Origin: Sphaerisporangium corydalis
Lineage (GTDB): Bacteria > Actinomycetota > Actinomycetes > Streptosporangiales > Streptosporangiaceae
DNA: 64,000 bases
NCBI RefSeq assembly: GCF_025506355.1
Contig: NZ_JANZYP010000003.1
Span: forward strand, 186,001 to 250,000
Reading direction: 5' to 3'
Position numbers and translations under genes: made by a program. How positions within the stretch are numbered: position 1 is the stretch's first letter; each line of letters opens with the position of its first letter. Below the pieces are notes generated by a model, which worked only from the letters and a program-made list of their open reading frames with translations, was not told the DNA's origin and ran no database searches. Below, piece after piece: positions 36,809 through 45,207 of the stretch.

Positions 36809-39055
36809 CTACTCGGTGAGGGCGATGTCGTGCGGGCGGATAGGGATCCGGGGCAGGGCCAGGCCGGTCGCGGCCCGGACGGCGGCGGCGATGGCCGGCG
36901 TGGACGACAGCGTCGGCGGCTCGCCCGCCCCCCGCAGCCCGTACGGCGCGTCGGGGTCGGGGTTCTCCAGGATCGACAGCCGCATCGGCGGCATGTCGAG
37001 GATCGTCGGGATCAGGTAGTCGGTGAACGACGGGTTCAGCACCTTGCCGTCCCGCATCTGGATCTCCTCCATCAGCGCCAGCCCGAGCCCCTGCGCCGAC
37101 CCGCCGTGGATCTGCCCTTCGAGCGCCAGCGGGTTGATGATCCTCCCGACGTCCTGGACGGCGGCCAGCTCGACGACCTTGACCAGCCCGAGGTCCAGGT
37201 CCACGTCCACCACGGCGCGGTGGACGCACAGCGCGAGCTGGGTGTGCGAGTCGCCCTGCCCGGTCACCGGGTCCATGGGGTAGGTCGGCCGGTGGCGGTA
37301 CTCGCGGGTCTCCTCGACCGGCCCGAACGCCTCCAGCAGTTCCTCCAGGGTGAGGCCGGGGTTGCCGGCCCGCAGCTTGTCCAGGCGGTCGCGCACCGCC
37401 TCGCTCGCGGTCTTCACCGCGCCGCCGGTGACGTAGGACTGCCGGGAGGCCGAGCTGGAGCCGGCCGACCCGACCGAGGTGTCGGCCGGTTCGATCGTCA
37501 CCCGGTCGACGCCCAGCTCGGTGCGGGCGATCTGCCCCTGCACCATGAGCAGGCCCTGGCCGACCTCGGCGGCGGCGGTGTGCACGCGGACGTGCGCCTC
37601 CCCGCCGAGCAGCTCGATGGTGACCTTGGCCGTGGAGTAGTCGTCGAACCCCTCGGAGAAGCAGATGTTCTTGATGCCCACCCCGTATCCGACGCCGCGC
37701 CGCACCCCCTCGCCGTGCGTCGTCTGGGCCACCCCGCCGGGCATCGACCGCAGGTCGGCCGAGGGCGTGGCGTCCGGCAGGGGCATGGCGGCCAGCTCGC
37801 GCAGCATGCCGGCCAGCGGCGCCGGCGACTCGATCACCTGGCCGGTCGCCAGCCGCGACCCCTGGGAGACGGCGTTGCGCACCCGGATCTCCACCGGGTC
37901 CAGCCCGCACGCCTCGGCCAGCTTGTCCATCTGCGACTCGTAGGCGTAGCAGGCCTGCACGGCGCCGAAGCCGCGCATCGCCCCGCAGGGCGGGTTGTTG
38001 GTGTACGCCCCGTAGGCGTCGATCGCGATGTCGGCCACCTCGTACGGGCCGACGCCGAGGGAGGCCGCGTTGCCGACGACGGCGAGCGAGGAGGAGCAGT
38101 ACGCGCCGCCGTCGAGCACGATCTCGGCCCGGACGTACACGAGCCGGCCCTCGCGGGTGGCGCCGTGCTCGTACCGCATGCGGGCGGGGTGCCGGTGGAC
38201 GTGCCCGAAGAACGACTCCTCCCGGCCGTAGACCATCTTGACCGGCCGGCCGGTGCGCAGGGCCAGCATGCTGGCGTGGATCTGCATCGACAGGTCCTCG
38301 CGGGCGCCGAACGCGCCGCCGACCCCGGCCAGCGTCAGCCGCACCTTCTCCTTGGGCAGGCCGAGGCAGGGGGCGATCTGGTCCTGGTCGACGTGCAGCC
38401 ACTGCGTGGCGATGAACAGGTCGATCCCGCCGTCCTCCGCGGGCACCGCCAGACCCGACTCGGGGCCGAGGAACGCCTGGTCCTGCATGCCGACCTCGTA
38501 CTCGCCGGTCACGACCACCTCGGCCGTCGCGGCCCCGGGCGCGTTCCCGGCGCGGACCGGCTGGTGGCGCACCAGGTTGCCGCCCGGCTGCACCTTCGGG
38601 CACTCAGGGTCGAACAGGGCGCGGCGCGCGTCGGTGACGGCCTCGCGCGGCTCGTAGGCGACCACGATGGCCGCCGCCCCGCGCCGGGCGGTCTCCGGAT
38701 GGTCGGCGGCCACGATCGCGACCGCCTCGCCCTGGTAGCGGACCTGGTCGATGGCCAGCACCGGCTGGTCCTTGTGCTCCAGCCCGTAGAACCGCGCCCC
38801 GGGGACGTCCTCGTGGGTGAGCACCGCCCGCACGCCGGGGATCGCCAGCGCGGGGCCGATGTCGATCGAGCGGATCCACGCCGACGGGTGCGGGCTGCGC
38901 AGGGTGGCGCCCCACAGCATGCCCGAGAGGTACAGGTCGGAGGAGTAGGCGAACTCGCCGGTCACCTTCAGGGTGCCGTCCGGCCGGGTCACGCCGGCCC
39001 CGACGCCCTGGTCGGTGCGCTGGTCCCGGGTCTGCCCGCTCGCGGTTTGGGTCAC
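36809..39055 (-). CDS. Xanthine dehydrogenase-family molybdopterin-binding subunit
   Basis: A 748-residue molybdenum hydroxylase large subunit. VTGEFAYSSDLYLSGMLWG and RSPHPSAWI form the a/b hammerhead, then VRLTLAGVGGAFGAREDLSM, NNPPCGAMRGFGAVQACYAYE, a GYGVGIKNICFSEG segment, AAAEVGQGLLMVQGQIA and the late GAGEPPTLSSTPAIAAAV with the catalytic Glu region. It resembles the PucD/XdhA purine branch. The FAD and 2Fe-2S subunits normally encoded alongside are not present on either side, so they must be elsewhere. The divergent neighbour is a PucR-type regulator remnant, supporting a purine or related substrate. Confidence 0.92.
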   Translation of the reverse strand: MTQTASGQTRDQRTDQGVGAGVTRPDGTLKVTGEFAYSSDLYLSGMLWGATLRSPHPSAWIRSIDIGPALAIPGVRAVLTHEDVPGARFYGLEHKDQPVLAIDQVRYQGEAVAIVAADHPETARRGAAAIVVAYEPREAVTDARRALFDPECPKVQPGGNLVRHQPVRAGNAPGAATAEVVVTGEYEVGMQDQAFLGPESGLAVPAEDGGIDLFIATQWLHVDQDQIAPCLGLPKEKVRLTLAGVGGAFGAREDLSMQIHASMLALRTGRPVKMVYGREESFFGHVHRHPARMRYEHGATREGRLVYVRAEIVLDGGAYCSSSLAVVGNAASLGVGPYEVADIAIDAYGAYTNNPPCGAMRGFGAVQACYAYESQMDKLAEACGLDPVEIRVRNAVSQGSRLATGQVIESPAPLAGMLRELAAMPLPDATPSADLRSMPGGVAQTTHGEGVRRGVGYGVGIKNICFSEGFDDYSTAKVTIELLGGEAHVRVHTAAAEVGQGLLMVQGQIARTELGVDRVTIEPADTSVGSAGSSSASRQSYVTGGAVKTASEAVRDRLDKLRAGNPGLTLEELLEAFGPVEETREYRHRPTYPMDPVTGQGDSHTQLALCVHRAVVDVDLDLGLVKVVELAAVQDVGRIINPLALEGQIHGGSAQGLGLALMEEIQMRDGKVLNPSFTDYLIPTILDMPPMRLSILENPDPDAPYGLRGAGEPPTLSSTPAIAAAVRAATGLALPRIPIRPHDIALTE

Positions 39056-39131
39056 ACGGGCAGTACATCAGCCCAGTTCACCGACGCCAATAGGCGCCCT
39101 GCCGAAGGGCGGGCCCGGGCGCGGCGGCCGA

Positions 39132-39147
39132 TTGGAGGTTCGTCCAA
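39132..39147. promoter_or_regulatory. Inverted repeat between the hydroxylase gene and pucR-like gene
   Basis: TTGGAGGTTCGTCCAA has 5-bp inverted arms (TTGGA/TCCAA) around a six-base centre and lies about 77 bp upstream of the molybdopterin-subunit ATG. The position in the divergent gap and dyad symmetry suggest an operator, plausibly for a PucR-type regulator. Confidence 0.4.
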
Positions 39148-39241
39148 AGGACCGGCGTTAGCCTTGGGCTGTGCGGATACGTGACCCGCCGAGGTCGCCG
39201 CGCGGCTACGCACCTGCGGGATCGGCGCGTCGGAGCCGTAC

Positions 39242-40030
39242 GTGGTCGTGACCGCCACCGTCACCCGGGAGGGCGCGACCGAAGGGCCCGATCCCGCCGT
39301 GCTCGGCGGGCAGGTGGTCGAGGAGATTCTGGGCCGCAGGGTGCTCGCCGCGGCGGGCGCGGACGGGGCGGTCGCCCTCGTTCCGCTGATCATGATGGGC
39401 GAGCCGGAAACCGGAGCCGGAAACGAGGTTACAAAGGGGCCGGAAAGCGGCACGGAACCCGCGCCGGTAGGGGAAAGCGCCTGGACCGGGCTGCGCGTGC
39501 GGAGTAGCGTGCAGGTGCAGACGCGATCGCAAGTGCAGCGTAGTGTGCAGGGGGTTCTGGACGTGCTGGGGGGCGGGGTGGCGATTCTTCGGGCGGCTCT
39601 GCCCAAAACCAGGGTCGCCGTCGGCGTGAGCGCCGCTCTGACCGGTCCCGGAGCCATCCGCGGTGGCGCCGAGGAGGCGTCCCACGCGCTGCGCATGGCC
39701 GAGGCCCGCGGCGGAGGAGTGGTGACCAGCGACGAGATCTACACGCACGATCTCCTGCTGGCCACCGTACCCGGCGACGTTCGCCGGTCCTTCGCGGATC
39801 GGATCCTTGCCCCGCTGTTCAGTTACGACCGCGACCACCAGTCGGAGCTGGTCCGCACACTCGGGACCTTCCTCGACTGCGCCGGGTCATGGAATGCCTG
39901 CGCGGAGCGTCTGCACGTGCACGTGAACACAGTTCGCTACCGCATCCGCCGGGTGGAGGGGTTGACCGGACGGGACCTGTCCTCAATGGCGGACAGGGTC
40001 GATCTCTTCCTTGCTCTGCGTGCCAGTTGA
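39242..40030 (+). CDS. PucR-family regulator, N-terminally truncated
   Basis: A 262-residue frame whose C-terminal half is a clear PucR/CdaR regulator: EEASHALRMAEARGGGVVTSDE, APLFSYDRDHQSELVRTLGTFLD, then the HTH_30 helix-turn-helix AERLHVHVNTVRYRIRRVEG. Full PucR proteins are about twice this length; the N-terminal sensory domain is absent. Coding-like sequence (PAEVAARLRTCGIGASEPY) continues upstream of the GTG at 39242 to a TGA at 39182 with no start codon, which implies a 5' deletion or frameshift. The middle also has a GTGCAG-rich irregular stretch (39497-39550). It may be a pseudogene or a constitutive DNA-binding remnant. Confidence 0.7.
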   Translation: MVVTATVTREGATEGPDPAVLGGQVVEEILGRRVLAAAGADGAVALVPLIMMGEPETGAGNEVTKGPESGTEPAPVGESAWTGLRVRSSVQVQTRSQVQRSVQGVLDVLGGGVAILRAALPKTRVAVGVSAALTGPGAIRGGAEEASHALRMAEARGGGVVTSDEIYTHDLLLATVPGDVRRSFADRILAPLFSYDRDHQSELVRTLGTFLDCAGSWNACAERLHVHVNTVRYRIRRVEGLTGRDLSSMADRVDLFLALRAS

Positions 40031-40038
40031 GTTACAAA

Positions 40039-40173
40039 TCAGCAGCAGCCGATGTCGTTTAGGGCTGTGGAGGGAGACGCGGCGGCGTCTGCGGCCATAA
40101 CATTGCTCCCGACGCCCGAAATGGCTACTAAGAGGATAGCTAGGGCAGTCGAGGCGAGGCGGAGGCGTCGCAT
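40039..40173 (-). CDS. 44-residue exported peptide, candidate signalling pre-peptide
   Basis: Small gene with ATG at 40173 and TGA at 40041-40039. Protein: MRRLRLASTALAILLVAISG, then VGSNVMAADAAASPSTALN and DIGCC. It has a basic n-region, a 17-residue hydrophobic core and an AxA-type site (around VMA/ADA, residues 25-30), leaving a short polar C-terminal peptide that ends Asn-Asp-Ile-Gly-Cys-Cys. A GGGAG ribosome site lies six bases upstream of the ATG. Leu-15 is a TTA codon, rare in such genomes and bldA-dependent in Streptomyces. The gene is divergent from an XRE-TPR regulator, with 54 bp between the two starts. That layout matches RRNPP quorum-sensing pairs; function is inferred. No family name is known to me. 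Confidence 0.7.
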   Translation of the reverse strand: MRRLRLASTALAILLVAISGVGSNVMAADAAASPSTALNDIGCC

Positions 40174-40210
40174 GGCTAACTCCCGTCGGTGACTGTCTGT
40201 GGGGGCTTAC

Positions 40211-40239
40211 ATCTTCAAGGGGTGCCAGTGACCAGTCAA
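40211..40239 (-). promoter_or_regulatory. Predicted sigma-70-type promoter of the 44-residue peptide gene
   Basis: On the minus strand TTGACT (40239-40234) and GAAGAT (40216-40211) are spaced by exactly 17 bases, giving a start near 40204 and a ~30-base leader before the ATG at 40173. The -35 hexamer falls inside codons 3-4 of the divergent regulator, so a regulator bound here would touch both genes. Confidence 0.45.
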
Positions 40240-41520
40240 GATCTCATAGGCCAACGAATCAAGACGATTCGCCGCCAACGCGGTCTTTCCCAGGCGCAGC
40301 TGGCGCACCCTGAACTCTCGGATAGCTATGTATCACTTATCGAGAGCGGCAAGCGTACGCCGACGGCAGCCGTTCTGGAACTGCTGGCGGCGAAGCTCGA
40401 GTGCTCCCTAACGTATCTGATCAACGGGGTCACCGCCGAACAGATGCAGGACCTGCAACTCGGGCTGGGGTACGCCGCCCTCGCGCTGGAGAACGGCGAG
40501 GTCGCCGAGGCCCGCCGCCGCTACGCCGAACTGCTCGCCGACGGCAACCTGGCCGGCCTGTCCCCGCTGAGGCAGCAGGCCCAGTACGGCTACGCCCTGG
40601 CCACCGAGGCCTGCGGCGACCTCGACGAGGCGATCGAGGTCCTCACCCGCCTGAAGGAGACCGGCGACGCCACGATGAGTGACGAGCGCGCCATCGCGGT
40701 CGTCCTCGCCCTGTCCCGGTGCCTGCGCGAGCGCGGCAAGCTCACCGAGGCCGTGCTCGTCGGCGAGGAGGCGCTGCTCGGCGCGAGGCGCCCGGCGTGG
40801 AACGACGACCTCGTCGAGCTGGGCGCGACCCTGCTCCTCGCCTACATCGTGCGCGGCGACCTGCTCAGGGCGCGCCAGTTCGCCGCCGAGCTGCTGGCGG
40901 CGGCCGAGATGCTCGGCACCCCCCGCGCGACCGTCGCCGCCTGCTGGAACGCCGCCATCGTCGCCGAGCACACCGGGCACGGGGAGGAGGCGCTCGCCCT
41001 GGTCGAGCGCGCCCTCGCGGTCCAGTCGGAGAACGGCGAGCCGCGCAACCTCGCCCGGCTGCGCACCGAGTCCGCGATCCTGCGTCTGCGCGTGCGTCCC
41101 GCCGAGGCGGAGTCCTGCCGCGAGGTGCTCCTGCGCGCCCGGCGCGAGCTCACCGAGACCTCCGCGAGCACCGTCGACCTCGCCAGGTGCAACCTCGACC
41201 TGGCCAAGGCGGAGATCGTCCTCGGCAACCCCGGCAAGGCCGTCGAGTACGGCCGCCAGGCCGTGGACATGCTCGACGACCGCACGGGCGCGCTGCGCGC
41301 CGAGACCCGGCTCATGCTCGCCAACGCCCTGCTGCTGCTCAGCAAGCGCGAGGAGGCGGCGATCGAGCTCGTGGCGGCCGAGGAGCTGCTGGAGCACGTC
41401 CCGGCCTCGCGCAAGACGGCCGCGGGCTGGGTGACCGCCGCGTGGGTGCTCGACAGCCTCGAGGACGGCGACGCCAGCGTGGCCGCCTACCAGCGCGCCC
41501 TCGCCTGCGCCGGCCTGTGA
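40228..41520 (+). CDS. XRE helix-turn-helix regulator with TPR domain (RRNPP-like)
   Basis: A 430-residue regulator. Residues 4-58 are an XRE helix-turn-helix (IGQRIKTIRRQRGLSQAQLA, then SYVSLIESGKRTPTAAVLELL). The remaining ~365 residues are tandem TPR-like helix pairs (YAALALENGEVAEARRRYAE, YALATEACGDLDEAIEVL, ALVERALAVQSENGEPRN, KAEIVLGNPGKAVEYGRQA and more). HTH plus a long TPR array at about 430 residues is the architecture of peptide-binding NprR/PlcR-type receptors. The GTG at 40228 is chosen because AAGGGG stands six bases before it. It is divergent from the 44-residue exported peptide gene, its likely partner. An intracellular metabolite-responsive role cannot be excluded. Confidence 0.85.
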   Translation: MTSQDLIGQRIKTIRRQRGLSQAQLAHPELSDSYVSLIESGKRTPTAAVLELLAAKLECSLTYLINGVTAEQMQDLQLGLGYAALALENGEVAEARRRYAELLADGNLAGLSPLRQQAQYGYALATEACGDLDEAIEVLTRLKETGDATMSDERAIAVVLALSRCLRERGKLTEAVLVGEEALLGARRPAWNDDLVELGATLLLAYIVRGDLLRARQFAAELLAAAEMLGTPRATVAACWNAAIVAEHTGHGEEALALVERALAVQSENGEPRNLARLRTESAILRLRVRPAEAESCREVLLRARRELTETSASTVDLARCNLDLAKAEIVLGNPGKAVEYGRQAVDMLDDRTGALRAETRLMLANALLLLSKREEAAIELVAAEELLEHVPASRKTAAGWVTAAWVLDSLEDGDASVAAYQRALACAGL

Positions 41521-41687
41521 CCGGAGTACGCCCCGGCCGGTGATCGGAGCGCCGGCCTGAGTACCGCGACCCCGGGGGGTCTCATCGGGTTCGTCGCGCC
41601 GATCGCCTGTTCGCGGGGTGCGCATGGGGGGCTCTCGACCGGCCTGTGGTGGGGACCTCGCCGTCCCCTGAGTAGCCTTAGGGTGCT

Positions 41688-42281
41688 ATGAGGACTTCCC
41701 CGCTCGCCGCCATGCTCGCGCTCGTCGCCGCCGCCGTACTAGGTACGGCCGTCGCCGCCCCCGCGATGGCCCATACGGTGCTCAAGAGCAGCGACCCCAA
41801 GAAGGGGGACACGGTCAAGACCCTCGACTCGGTGAAGCTGACCTTCAACGAGGCGGTGCGGTTCCCCGTGGTCCTCGTCCGCGACGCCGGCGGCAAGAAG
41901 TACCACCAGGGCAAGCCCAGCACCGACGGCGCGGTGGTCACCCAGAAGGTGGCGGGCGCCCTGCCGTCCGGGAAATACACGATCGCCTGGCGCGTGGTGT
42001 CCGACGACGGGCACCCCATCGAGGGCGAGATCCCCTTCACCGTCAAGGCCCCCGAGCCGGCCTCGCCCTCGCCCGAGGCGGTGCCGCCGTCGGCCGCCCC
42101 CTCCCCGAGCACGGGCGCGAGCTCGCCGCCCCCCTTCACGCCCACCCCGGTGGGCGCCTCGCCGGTGGCGCGGGCCGAGGACCAGAAGAGCGGCGGCATC
42201 CCCGTCTGGGTGTGGATCGTCGTCTTCGGCATCGCGGGCATCGGCATCGGCCTCGGTATCAGCCTCCGGAAGAAGCCGTGA
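41688..42281 (+). CDS. copC: CopC-domain copper resistance/uptake protein
   Basis: A 197-residue exported, membrane-anchored CopC. The signal peptide ends AAPAMA, leaving mature His-1 (HTVLKSSDPKKGDT), the first copper ligand; SDDGHPIEGEIPF supplies the Asp and His of the Cu(II) site. A Pro/Ser linker and one C-terminal membrane helix (VWVWIVVFGIAGIGIGLGIS) tether it outside the membrane. Its TGA overlaps the CopD-like gene start as GTGA. It probably passes copper to CopD for import or for cytochrome oxidase assembly. Confidence 0.93.
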   Translation: MRTSPLAAMLALVAAAVLGTAVAAPAMAHTVLKSSDPKKGDTVKTLDSVKLTFNEAVRFPVVLVRDAGGKKYHQGKPSTDGAVVTQKVAGALPSGKYTIAWRVVSDDGHPIEGEIPFTVKAPEPASPSPEAVPPSAAPSPSTGASSPPPFTPTPVGASPVARAEDQKSGGIPVWVWIVVFGIAGIGIGLGISLRKKP

Positions 42282-44521
42282 CCAGACCTTCGGAAAAGCC
42301 CACCAGCAAGAGAACCCCGGAAAAGCCCGCGAGCGAACCCGCCGCCAAGCCTTCGGAAAAGCCCACCAGCAAGCCCGCCGCCAAGCCTTCGGAGAAGTCC
42401 GCGAGCAAACCCGCCGCGAAGACCGGCAGGCCCGCCAAGGCCGTGACGCCCCCACCGGGGAAGGCCGTGCGCAGGCCCCCGGGTAAGGCGGGGGGCCCGG
42501 CCGCGGCCGAGGCGGCCGCCGGGGGGCCCGCGGTGGGCAGGACGGTGCGGCTGGCCGTCGCGGGCGTCTGCGTGGCGCTGGGCGGCCTGGTCGTGGCGAT
42601 GGTCGTCGGCGGGGCGGCGACCCCGCGCATCATCCCCGGCCTGCCCGACGAGGGCGCGCTGACCCGCTGGGCGCTGCCGGTGTCCAAGCTGACCATGGAC
42701 GCCGCGGGCGTGGCCGCCGTGGGCCTGCTGCTCCTGGCCACCGCCCTGCTCCCGAGCGACAAGGGCTTACTCGGCCGGCCGGCGCTCGTCTACGTCAAGG
42801 CCGCCTCCTGGACGGGCCTGCTGTGGGCGCTCGCCGCGGCCTCCACCCTGGTGTTCAGCCTGTCGGAGACGCTCGGCACACCGGTCTCCGACGTCATCGG
42901 CGGCGACGAGCTCACCAGCTACGCCAGCCAGGTCCCCCAGGGCATCGCCCTGACCCTGGTCGTGCTGTTCGGCACGGCCATCGCGCTGTTCTCCCGTGGC
43001 GCGATCACCGCCGGTGCCGCCGGGGGGCTGCTGGTCCTCGCGCTGGCGACCCTGCTGCCCCCGGCGCTGACCGGGCACTCCTCCTCGGCGCCCAACCACG
43101 GCCTGGCCACGACCAGCGTCGCGCTCCACCTGCTGGTGCTGTCGCTGTGGGTCGGCGGGCTGCTGCTGCTGAGCGTGCACGCCCTGCGCGGCGGGCCGCA
43201 CCTCGACCTGGCCGCGCACCGCTTCTCCCGCATGGCGCTGTGGTGCTTCGCCGGCGTCGGCCTGTCCGGCGTGTTCAGCGCCCTGGCCCGGCTGACGGCC
43301 GTCTCCGACCTCTACACCACCTCTTACGGCGTGATCATCCTCGCCAAGGTCGCCGCCTTCACCGCTCTCGGGGTGATCGGCTGGTGGCACCGCGAGCGCA
43401 CCCTGCCCGCGCTGTCCGCCGGCCGTCCCGGCGCCTTCACCCGGCTCGCCGGGGTCGAGGGCCTGATCATGCTGGTGGCGATGGGCCTGGCCGTCGCGCT
43501 CTCGCGCACCGCACCGCCGCCGCTCGACCTGCCGGTGGACCGCGCCTTCGAGCTGCTGGGCTACCTCATCCCGCCGCCGATCACGGTGGCGAACCTGCTC
43601 ACGCTGTGGTGGTTCGACCTGTTCTTCGCGGCGGTGGCCGCCCTGCTGGCCGGCCTCTACGTGGCGGGCGCCGTCCGGCTGGCCCGCCGGGGCGACCGGT
43701 GGCCGCTCGGCCGGACGATCAGCTGGGGGGCCGGCGTCCTGCTGCTGGTCCTGGCCACGCAGAGCGGCATCGCCCGGTACGCCCCGGTGCTGTTCAGCGT
43801 CCACATGGCCGAGCACATGATCCTCTCGATGCTCGTGCCGATCTTCCTGGTGCTGGGCGCGCCGGTGACCCTGGCCCTTCGGGCGCTCAAGCCCGCCGCG
43901 CGGCGCGGGGACCGCGGCCCCCGCGAGTGGATCACGACGATCCTGCACAGCAGGACCACCCGGGTCATCACCCATCCCGCGATCGCCACGGCCCTGTTCA
44001 TCGTCTCGACGTACGCCCTCTACTTCACGCCGCTGTTCGCCTCGGCGATGGAGGAGCACCTCGGGCACATCGCGATGACCCTGCACTTCCTGCTCACCGG
44101 ATGCCTCTTCTTCTGGGTGATCATCGGGGTGGACCCGGCGCCGACCAAGCTGCCGTACTTCGGCCGGCTGCTCCTGCTGTTCGTCACCATGCCGTTCCAC
44201 GCGTTCTTCGGCATCGCGCTGATGAACATGGGCACCGTCATCGCCGCCGACTGGTACGACCAGCTCGGCCGCACCTGGGGGGACCCCCCGCTGGCCGACC
44301 AGGGCACCGGCGGGGCCATCGCCTGGGCGTTCGGGGAGATCCCGACGCTGATCGTGCTGCTGGCCCTCGCCTTCCAGTGGTACCGCGCCGAGGACCGCAC
44401 GGCCAGGCGGGCCGACCGGCGCGCCGACGCCCGGGCCGCCAGGGACGGCGGCACCGGCGACTCCGAGCTGGACGCCTACAACGACTACCTCGCCAGGCTC
44501 GACAGGAGCGACAGAGAGTAA
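42278..44521 (+). CDS. CopD-CtaG fusion: copper import and cytochrome oxidase assembly membrane protein
   Basis: A 747-residue polytopic protein. About 75 cytoplasmic residues of Lys/Pro/Ser repeats (PSEKPTSKPAAK, imperfect 12-residue period, 36-bp DNA repeat at about 42292-42420) precede a CopD domain (about 110-440; TGHSSSAPNHGLATTSVALH, LWVGGLLLLSVHAL) and a CtaG domain (about 455-720; FSVHMAEHMILSMLVPIFLV, HFLLTGCLFFWVIIG, PFHAFFGIALMNMG). His-rich helices fit copper transfer. It forms an operon with copC and probably supplies copper to the terminal oxidase. The GTG overlaps the copC TGA. Confidence 0.92.
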   Translation: MTRPSEKPTSKRTPEKPASEPAAKPSEKPTSKPAAKPSEKSASKPAAKTGRPAKAVTPPPGKAVRRPPGKAGGPAAAEAAAGGPAVGRTVRLAVAGVCVALGGLVVAMVVGGAATPRIIPGLPDEGALTRWALPVSKLTMDAAGVAAVGLLLLATALLPSDKGLLGRPALVYVKAASWTGLLWALAAASTLVFSLSETLGTPVSDVIGGDELTSYASQVPQGIALTLVVLFGTAIALFSRGAITAGAAGGLLVLALATLLPPALTGHSSSAPNHGLATTSVALHLLVLSLWVGGLLLLSVHALRGGPHLDLAAHRFSRMALWCFAGVGLSGVFSALARLTAVSDLYTTSYGVIILAKVAAFTALGVIGWWHRERTLPALSAGRPGAFTRLAGVEGLIMLVAMGLAVALSRTAPPPLDLPVDRAFELLGYLIPPPITVANLLTLWWFDLFFAAVAALLAGLYVAGAVRLARRGDRWPLGRTISWGAGVLLLVLATQSGIARYAPVLFSVHMAEHMILSMLVPIFLVLGAPVTLALRALKPAARRGDRGPREWITTILHSRTTRVITHPAIATALFIVSTYALYFTPLFASAMEEHLGHIAMTLHFLLTGCLFFWVIIGVDPAPTKLPYFGRLLLLFVTMPFHAFFGIALMNMGTVIAADWYDQLGRTWGDPPLADQGTGGAIAWAFGEIPTLIVLLALAFQWYRAEDRTARRADRRADARAARDGGTGDSELDAYNDYLARLDRSDRE

Positions 44522-44664
44522 CGGGCCCTGACTGGGAGTAGGCTTGCGGAGGCCCGGGAGGCGGTCGCCGCCGCCGAGCGCGCTGACGCCCGCCTGCGGG
44601 TAGCGTGGCATCAAAGAGTTCGGGCATAGACACTTTGGGTGGACTTTCGGTGGAAGGTCCCACC

Positions 44665-44686
44665 GGGGTGGCATCGCCGCCACCCC
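44665..44686. terminator. GC-rich hairpin in the gap after the CopD-CtaG gene
   Basis: Perfect 8-bp arms GGGGTGGC and GCCACCCC with a six-base loop, about 145 bp after the CopD-CtaG stop and 100 bp before the orphan ATPase gene. There is no U tract; it is a plausible terminator or attenuator. Confidence 0.45.
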
Positions 44687-44787
44687 AAGCGATTTTCCAA
44701 CCGCTCTTCAAGCACGCGTCGGTAGCGTCGCCCGAGTTTCTGTCACCAGGGCCACGCGGTGGGGCCGGGATCACGTAGCCCGGAGCG

Positions 44788-45207
44788 GTGCGCCCAGGAG
44801 GGTTGGGGGAGTTGTACGAAGAGTTGCGCATGCGCGGAAAACGGAGCCTGGCGCGGGCGGTCGAGGACTACCTGACGGAATGGTCGGAACGCACCGGGAT
44901 CACCGTCGAGGTGTGGGCGATGCCCAAGGAACGGGTGACCGGTCCCGTCGCCGACGCCGTCTACGCCGTCGTGCTCGCGGCCCTGTCCAACGTCGAACGG
45001 CACAGCGGCGCCCACACGCTCTCGCTCGCCCTCACCACGGGCCGCGGCGGCCTTCGGCTGACCGTCAGCGACAACGGCGTGGGCTTCCCGCCCGGCCGCA
45101 CCGGGCCCGGGATGGACACGATGAAGCGGCGGTTCAGCGAGGTGGGCGGCGTCCTGACGATCAACAGCGTGGTCGGTGAGGGCACGACGGTCAGCGGCCA
45201 GATCTGA
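44788..45207 (+). CDS. Stand-alone histidine-kinase-type ATPase domain
   Basis: A protein of about 139 residues consisting of a HATPase_c domain of the NarL/DesK-kinase type: N-box LAALSNVERHSGAHTLS, G1-box SDNGVGFPPGR and GPGMDTMKRRFSEVGGVL. The dimerisation/phospho-acceptor helix with its conserved His is missing, as is any sensor or receiver partner. It is either the 3' remnant of a kinase or an anti-sigma-like switch protein. The start is uncertain among GTG 44788, TTG 44812 and ATG 44830; GGGGGAG at about 44804 best serves a downstream start. Confidence 0.65.
   Translation: MRPGGLGELYEELRMRGKRSLARAVEDYLTEWSERTGITVEVWAMPKERVTGPVADAVYAVVLAALSNVERHSGAHTLSLALTTGRGGLRLTVSDNGVGFPPGRTGPGMDTMKRRFSEVGGVLTINSVVGEGTTVSGQI

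Follow-up and report, generated by a model that had tools for sequence, protein, structure and literature searches.

What does the small gene at this locus encode, and is its product a signal for the regulator that is transcribed away from it? The locus lies within a 64,000-nucleotide stretch of the genome of the soil actinobacterium Sphaerisporangium corydalis, referred to here as the window. A gene of 44 codons plus stop (40039-40173, minus strand) with an ATG start is divergent from the gene of a 430-residue regulator (40228-41520, plus strand), which combines a helix-turn-helix (HTH) with tetratricopeptide repeats (TPR) and is the proposed cytosolic receptor. The product of the small gene, MRRLRLASTALAILLVAISGVGSNVMAADAAASPSTALNDIGCC, has a signal-like N-terminus, a variable tail of about 14 residues and the C-terminal Cys-Cys (CC) described in the initial annotation, which had read the two genes as a quorum-sensing pair of the RRNPP type. 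Comparative sequence evidence indicates that the small gene is translated and that, throughout the class Actinomycetes, it accompanies HTH-TPR regulators of a single family. We think it probable that the two form a peptide-signaling pair acting in the manner of RRNPP systems.

In Bacillota, peptide pheromones that act through cytosolic receptors are a main cell-cell language. In the RRNPP(A) systems PlcR-PapR and NprR-NprX of this phylum, as at this locus, a short pre-peptide gene with an export-like signal lies beside the gene of an HTH-TPR regulator. The PapR and NprX precursors are similar in size to the 44-codon product, and NprR is similar in length to the window regulator. The very short C-terminal signals of the Phr-Rap and arbitrium (AimP-AimR) systems are read by a TPR-type groove, the Rap proteins being without an HTH.

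The Actinomycetota are a phylum of many antibiotic producers. Their signals are typically small molecules according to an excerpt of one source (PMC10075063), while an excerpt of another names butyrolactones and cyclic or modified peptides and lists TPR proteins among the predicted quorum-sensing proteins of several genera (PMC4748050). Oligopeptide import by BldK of Streptomyces coelicolor, by which a 655 Da peptide presumed to be a developmental signal is taken up, resembles the import half of a peptide circuit, but no precursor gene or cytosolic receptor is named in the excerpted text (PMC9640686). Neither the word 'cysteine' nor actinobacterial names occur in PMC9765709. Among the matches listed in our literature search, taken as titles and abstract openings and free of subscription papers and preprints, no paper describes an HTH-TPR/pre-peptide system in Actinomycetota. 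We know of no described RRNPP pheromone with a C-terminal CC, nor, more broadly, of any described quorum-sensing peptide that ends in a comparable dithiol. The system appears to be widespread and is perhaps undescribed, and its novelty is provisional.

Conservation of the small gene beside its regulator

The test set beforehand was whether the small frame is kept beside orthologous regulators, and it is kept at 21/21 and at 80/80 loci in two overlapping sets. For the first set, 60 genomes were searched (the window's own included), and a match to the regulator at E<=0.001 was obtained in 46 of them. At the 21 loci with a regulator at least 45% identical (the window's included) a divergent small open reading frame (ORF) was always present, and it ended in CC at all of them except L019 and L020 (19/21). 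The second set consists of the best 80 of 394 confirmed relatives in named genomes, the closest of which are Sphaerisporangium species with regulators 70-76% identical to that of the window. It spans 14 genera of Streptosporangiaceae and one unplaced actinobacterial metagenome-assembled genome. ORFs of 30-70 codons whose start lay 40-75 bases from the regulator match were considered here, the tail was ignored, and an N-terminus was called signal-like, as throughout this work, by a simple rule of charge and hydrophobicity. Exactly one divergent signal-like ORF with a ribosome site was found at 80/80 loci, with a CC end at 68 and another end at 12. The 68 CC peptides include 64 distinct sequences.

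The 12 loci with another end belong to Streptosporangium, Planomonospora and Planobispora, and their tails include LGWNHPD, TSWSYPD and AGPWGYPI, as well as LGPLNNAE and YGPAPHAE from two Planomonospora. CC is retained in Streptosporangium KLBMP 9127 (L099). With the 44-residue peptide itself as query, the orthologous place was recovered in as few as 14/60 genomes (own included), several of them at E >0.1, because the tail varies.

In two Spongiactinospora loci (L091 and L154) the whole pair of regulator and CC peptide is tandemly duplicated, the second copy lying some 1.7-1.9 kb upstream of the principal one. The tails of the duplicated pair have diverged, ending DAPRCC and GEPLCC as compared with KDIFCC and KDIACC.

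Evolution of the peptide C-terminus

When all 80 loci are placed on a receptor tree, at least 5 changes are needed at the last position of the peptide (-1) and 2 at the position before it (-2), as against 30-49 at each of positions -3 to -16. The simple state of ending in CC or not requires one change, CC having been lost once. The initial annotation predicted an (N)DIG-like C-terminus, which is not conserved beyond the CC itself, and considered the Cys pair unusual for pheromones of this kind, while it turns out to be the signature of the family, present at 68/80 loci selected free of any condition on the tail (in the window codons 43-44, 40042-40047, minus strand). Entropies at positions -3 to -10 among the CC rows are 3.1-3.8 bits; the zero entropy at -1 and -2 and the invariant CC of a 20-peptide alignment, from which the Cys-free L019 and L020 were left out, reflect the use of CC-ending rows only.

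The frame is kept through peptide lengths of 40-58 residues. Both Cys codons are in use (TGT at least once in 5/68 loci, otherwise TGC) and all three stop codons occur. In 68 close pairs of CC rows the ratio of nonsynonymous to synonymous differences (pN/pS) is lower in the signal region (0.56) than in the tail (0.90). Taken together, tree changes, pN/pS and codon use are those of a translated gene whose end is fixed, and not those of an untranslated frame.

One rival explanation is a chance ORF in a divergent intergenic region, and a GC content of 67% at third codon positions is indeed not extreme for such GC-rich DNA. The background was counted directly. In 606,618 bases flanking the named loci there were 3473 ORFs of 28-70 amino acids, 239 of them signal-like and 4 ending in CC; only two were both, and each of these lies beside the tandem second regulator of a Spongiactinospora locus (L091, L154). 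Beside paralogues and distant homologues of the regulator, a CC ORF was found in 0/20 upstream stretches (14 of the 20 belong to one paralogue clade, as judged by N-termini) and in 0/8 downstream stretches of the same places. With conservation at 80/80 loci, an end fixed on the tree and a background near nil, chance has a negligible probability and is refuted for practical purposes.

Occurrence in other families, plasmids and phages

A class-wide profile search gave a regulator match in 52/296 genomes at E<=1e-30. CC ORFs stand beside related regulators in ten families by our codes (f1, f11, f16, f20, f21, f22, f27, f28, f29 and f40), mostly divergent upstream or convergent downstream, while the other neighbors change. 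In f21, where CC was looked for, a divergent CC ORF of about 40-43 codons (start inferred) is present at 20/21 regulators, with ends such as ASPGDFCC and DWPGMCC; the 21st locus, L196, has about 235 bases before the contig end. A tail-blind choice in the same family gave 14 ORFs at 17 loci, 14/14 with CC. Among 30 further upstream stretches (three from f21, and two of the 30 cut by contig ends), 13 hold a CC ORF, over f11, f16, f21, f22, f27, f28, f29 and f40. That of L202 is on the regulator's own strand and that of L211 is not signal-like from its listed start. Where the upstream side had no CC ORF and the downstream side was also read, a convergent CC ORF was present at 6/12 regulators, four of them ending WCC. 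Contig ends cut L196 and L197, L215 and L222 were read upstream only, and L303 and L304, as partial regulators, were left out. At L219 (genome G240) WCC is followed by five residues (DAIPA); its sister regulator L212 has a peptide ending in WCC.

The genus of genome G057 has the regulator in 10/101 genomes, with a signal-like CC ORF at 6/12 copies and an in-frame stop in some copies. Plasmid records with a match numbered 16, of which 7 were read and 2 have a CC ORF. One is an 11.85 Mb record of Nonomuraea gerenzanensis. The other is the Streptomyces plasmid pADI95-16a, in which an annotated 71-residue hypothetical protein (WP_123083198.1) ending KDIPLCC follows the regulator and is not signal-like from its annotated start by the simple rule. 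In the pADI95-16a locus (L236, 4536-5043) the protein ending PLCC is followed by a 70-residue protein with a signal-like start, both being downstream of the HTH-TPR regulator. The regulator on a plasmid of Streptosporangium sp. NBC_01495 (L233) joins the clade with alternative tails on the tree, and no recognizable peptide ORF adjoins it. In 50,697 phage records there was one partial regulator match, on an unannotated fecal contig, and no CC ORF was found at that match. The phage context of arbitrium is thus missing here.

A sample of the phylum included 5 genomes outside the class with the regulator at E<=1e-40, and in a search of the class concerned 11/27 genomes had it at E<=1e-30. Nine of the ten regulators with readable upstream DNA (L293, L299-L302, L305-L308, and not L297, the upstream stretch of which has none) have, on the divergent side, a signal-like ORF that spans 28-33 codons from its inferred start. 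The tails of these mini-precursors are FPWGGT, FPWPK, FPGP, YPWPK (twice), NWPHH, NWPKH, NWPHVP and GWPKH. Over the ten loci there are 160 ORFs of 24-36 codons, 13 of them signal-like; WP, PW or FPG, motifs named after the tails had been seen, occurs in the last 7 residues of 9, and these are the 9 at the divergent place. Because only about 4-7 residues follow their signal-like segment, the active part would be the extreme C-terminus.

Structure of the regulator and changes that accompany the tail

The regulator was correctly described by the initial annotation as an XRE-type HTH with a TPR remainder. Pfam matches include HTH_3 (1.4e-10, residues 11-64), HTH_19 (residues 8-68) and TPR_12 (7.8e-9). 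An AlphaFold2 model built from 49 sequences, with a mean predicted local distance difference test score of 90.5 and a predicted template modeling score of 0.78, consists of the HTH (about residues 7-68; 40246-40431, plus strand) and nine TPR-like helix pairs (residues 70-427; 40435-41508, plus strand), to which other Pfam TPR matches also point.

In a profile search of the PDB, PlcR was the best natural bacterial protein (1.3e-10, residues 4-191). NprR came lower, at 4.9e-8, and the entries between the two were designed TPRs, eukaryotic TPRs and an HTH-only phage repressor. In a Foldseek search with the model, PlcR-PapR7-DNA (3u3w) at rank 8 was the best bacterial regulator, and Rap of phage Phi3T, a point of likeness to the Phr-Rap and arbitrium systems, was at rank 46. 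Assignment to the NsdA family (NCBIfam NF053720) was rejected, the regulator scoring 30.4 bits against a cut-off of 75; the label 'NsdA-like' was likewise dropped for a second paralogue clade, the tested protein of which fails to match the NsdA model.

The 12 loci with alternative tails offer a comparison between tail and receptor. On a receptor tree built from one in three of the CC rows at named loci, together with 8 f21 rows, they form one clade (one change, support 96). Among 132 TPR positions conserved in the CC receptors of the family, 17 are changed in this clade. Position 201 (codon 40828-40830, plus strand) carries T in 97% of CC receptors within the family and in 89% of 35 CC-partnered receptors elsewhere, and Q in 11/12 alternative-tail receptors. 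Position 241 (codon 40948-40950, plus strand) carries N in 97% and 86% of these two CC sets, respectively, and G, A, Q or E in 12/12 alternative-tail receptors, the two members with AE tails having Q and E. The canonical register places 201 and 241 at A-helix position 6 (TPR 4 and 5, respectively) and 197, 237 and 277 at position 2. Both A-helix positions are, we assume, ligand-facing, as in carboxylate clamps.

Switched positions are not significantly clustered in TPR 4-6 (10/17 versus 55/132, p 0.10). They are modestly enriched at canonical groove sites (6/17 versus 14/115, p 0.024), where the groove-facing assignment follows the canonical TPR register and not model coordinates and is approximate for TPR 6, 8 and 9. 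In the TPR carboxylate clamps of HOP and CHIP, A-helix residues of successive TPRs hold the free C-terminus of a peptide; in the assumed register T201 and N241 (position 6) and R277 (position 2) would be comparable, as an analogy only. A receptor Cys that might pair with CC was considered and not adopted, since C165, present in 74% of the family's CC receptors and 86% of other CC-partnered ones, is also present in 12/12 alternative-tail receptors. On the whole the covariation is suggestive of a receptor that reads the tail, and falls short of proof.

A probable peptide-signaling pair

How would such a pair work? The peptide would be exported by way of its signal-like N-terminus, and signal peptidase, perhaps with a second protease, would free a short fragment from the C-terminus, which here would end in about NDIGCC. 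The fragment would be brought back into the cell by an oligopeptide permease, a step that the 14 candidate binding proteins of oligopeptide type (SBP_bac_5) in the genome would allow. The peptide may then bind the concave groove of the TPR superhelix and alter the action of the HTH at the divergent promoter region common to both genes and at further targets. In this proposal the groove would read the extreme C-terminus, that is, CC and its free carboxylate, near T201, W240, N241, R273 and R277 of the TPR 4-6 A-helices, with the variable residues before CC providing specificity between species.

Two of the features that define RRNPP systems are present: a receptor with an N-terminal HTH and a C-terminal TPR superhelix, and an adjoining short pre-peptide gene with an export signal by the simple rule. 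The fixed C-terminus and the mini-precursors would fit a mature signal that is a short C-terminal fragment. The initial reading of an RRNPP pair is supported in outline and extended, as HTH-TPR receptor and adjoining pre-peptide gene recur across the class. True membership is at most a proposal, no RRNPP-specific family being among the matches of the regulator. The system also differs from those of Bacillota in its phylum, in the placement of the peptide gene divergent upstream or convergent downstream, and in the C-terminal CC.

Several observations weigh against a signaling pair or against its RRNPP ancestry. Besides the missing RRNPP-specific family, the top Foldseek ranks are held by designed TPRs and LGN, i.e. 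designed or generic TPRs, and in sequence PlcR and NprR match, yet designed and generic TPRs score alike. No recognizable peptide was found at L025 and L028-L030, on either side of 6/12 regulators read on both sides, at 6/12 regulator copies in the genus of G057, or in 5/7 plasmid records read. The signal-like character is that of a simple rule, and the groove sites are those of an assumed register. In the CC codons of the close pairs there are 8 synonymous and 0 nonsynonymous differences, the zero being by construction, as CC-ending rows only were used. The T201 and N241 combination is missing in 7/35 CC-partnered rows outside the core (L023, L024, L190, L228, L257, L259 and L268), and both residues are kept in 9/19 rows without a partner (Fisher p 0.03, not corrected for kinship). 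The covariation amounts in essence to a single switch and is confounded by ancestry.

The same evidence bears on two further explanations. The small gene could encode a secreted effector (an antimicrobial, surface or developmental peptide) under the control of the regulator and not its ligand, with the TPRs sensing something else. A regulator and its target are commonly encoded by adjacent divergent genes, and a fast-evolving tail fits an antagonistic effector as well. We nevertheless find this unlikely: the receptor changes coincide with the tail swap, the pair is kept in both divergent and convergent placements, which control from a shared promoter does not need, and the 4-7 residues or so left after the signal-like segment in the other class are small for an effector. 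Alternatively, the peptide could be an intracellular inhibitor or co-factor of the regulator that is never exported, its N-terminus merely resembling a signal sequence. Linkage and covariation would then look identical, but a basic start and a Sec-like hydrophobic core are found at all 80 loci (in part through the selection rule) and the N-terminal part is more constrained than the tail, so that we hold this to be very improbable.

A peptide-signaling pair stays the probable explanation. Conserved throughout the class, such a pair would offer candidate receptors with their ligands in no fewer than 14 named Streptosporangiaceae genera. The tail rule (CC, WxxP-like or PWPK-like) would define synthetic peptides ready for testing. 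A bolder proposal, which we regard as doubtful, is that actinobacteria have a peptide language of their own throughout the phylum, in which the TPR groove reads the extreme C-terminus and CC acts as a redox gate. CC would be oxidized outside the cell, as a vicinal or intermolecular disulfide, and reduced or in mixed disulfide inside, and only the imported reduced peptide would bind.

The window locus and its neighboring genes

The signal-like region of the pre-peptide covers about codons 1-28 (40090-40173, minus strand), with its boundary, the putative cleavage site, estimated from the alignment. The ribosome site of the gene, GGGAG with a spacer of 6 to the ATG, was found where the initial annotation had placed it (40184-40180, minus strand). 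A Shine-Dalgarno-like 4-mer precedes 80/80 orthologous ORFs, a count that the choice of start codons favored. The regulator starts with GTG at 40228, ends with a stop at 41518-41520 and has the ribosome site AAGGGG (40217-40222). Both ribosome sites lie in the divergent intergenic region of 54 bases (40174-40227), the equivalent of which measures 50-64 bases, to the start of the regulator match, in the 80 relatives.

The promoter proposed for the small gene is present as letters, with TTGACT (40239-40234, minus strand), 17 bases and GAAGAT (40216-40211). It is weak as a promoter, because GAAGAT agrees with the -10 consensus at 3/6 positions, TTGACT lies within regulator codons 3-4 and a promoter scan of 39950-40400 gave 0 promoter-like sites. 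An Rfam search of 39000-42600 gave no match.

Just downstream of the regulator is a CopC gene (41688-42281), and the plus-strand stretch 41688-45207, which encodes CopC, a CopD/CtaG protein and a small HATPase protein, is largely syntenic in the Streptosporangiaceae loci examined. Among 7 named loci of this family the CopD/CtaG gene follows in 7, CopC in 6, and a PucR-type gene precedes in 4. These neighbors suggest a copper or metal function, with Cu(I) chelation by the CC tail and a regulator that would serve the copper genes. In other families, however, CopC, CopD/CtaG and PucR had no match at 7 loci where the CC peptide is kept (gene calling being poor at L228), so the association is confined to Streptosporangiaceae loci and does not extend across the regulator family. 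Moreover, the Cys-free tails of L100 and L135 still adjoin CopC-CopD. The copper explanation was rejected on these two grounds as extremely improbable.

The PucR-type regulator of the window (39242-40030, plus strand) has 262 residues with a C-terminal PucR HTH. Relatives at L084, L108, L111 and L231 have about 490-560, and the window copy is probably truncated or frameshifted in its N-terminal half.
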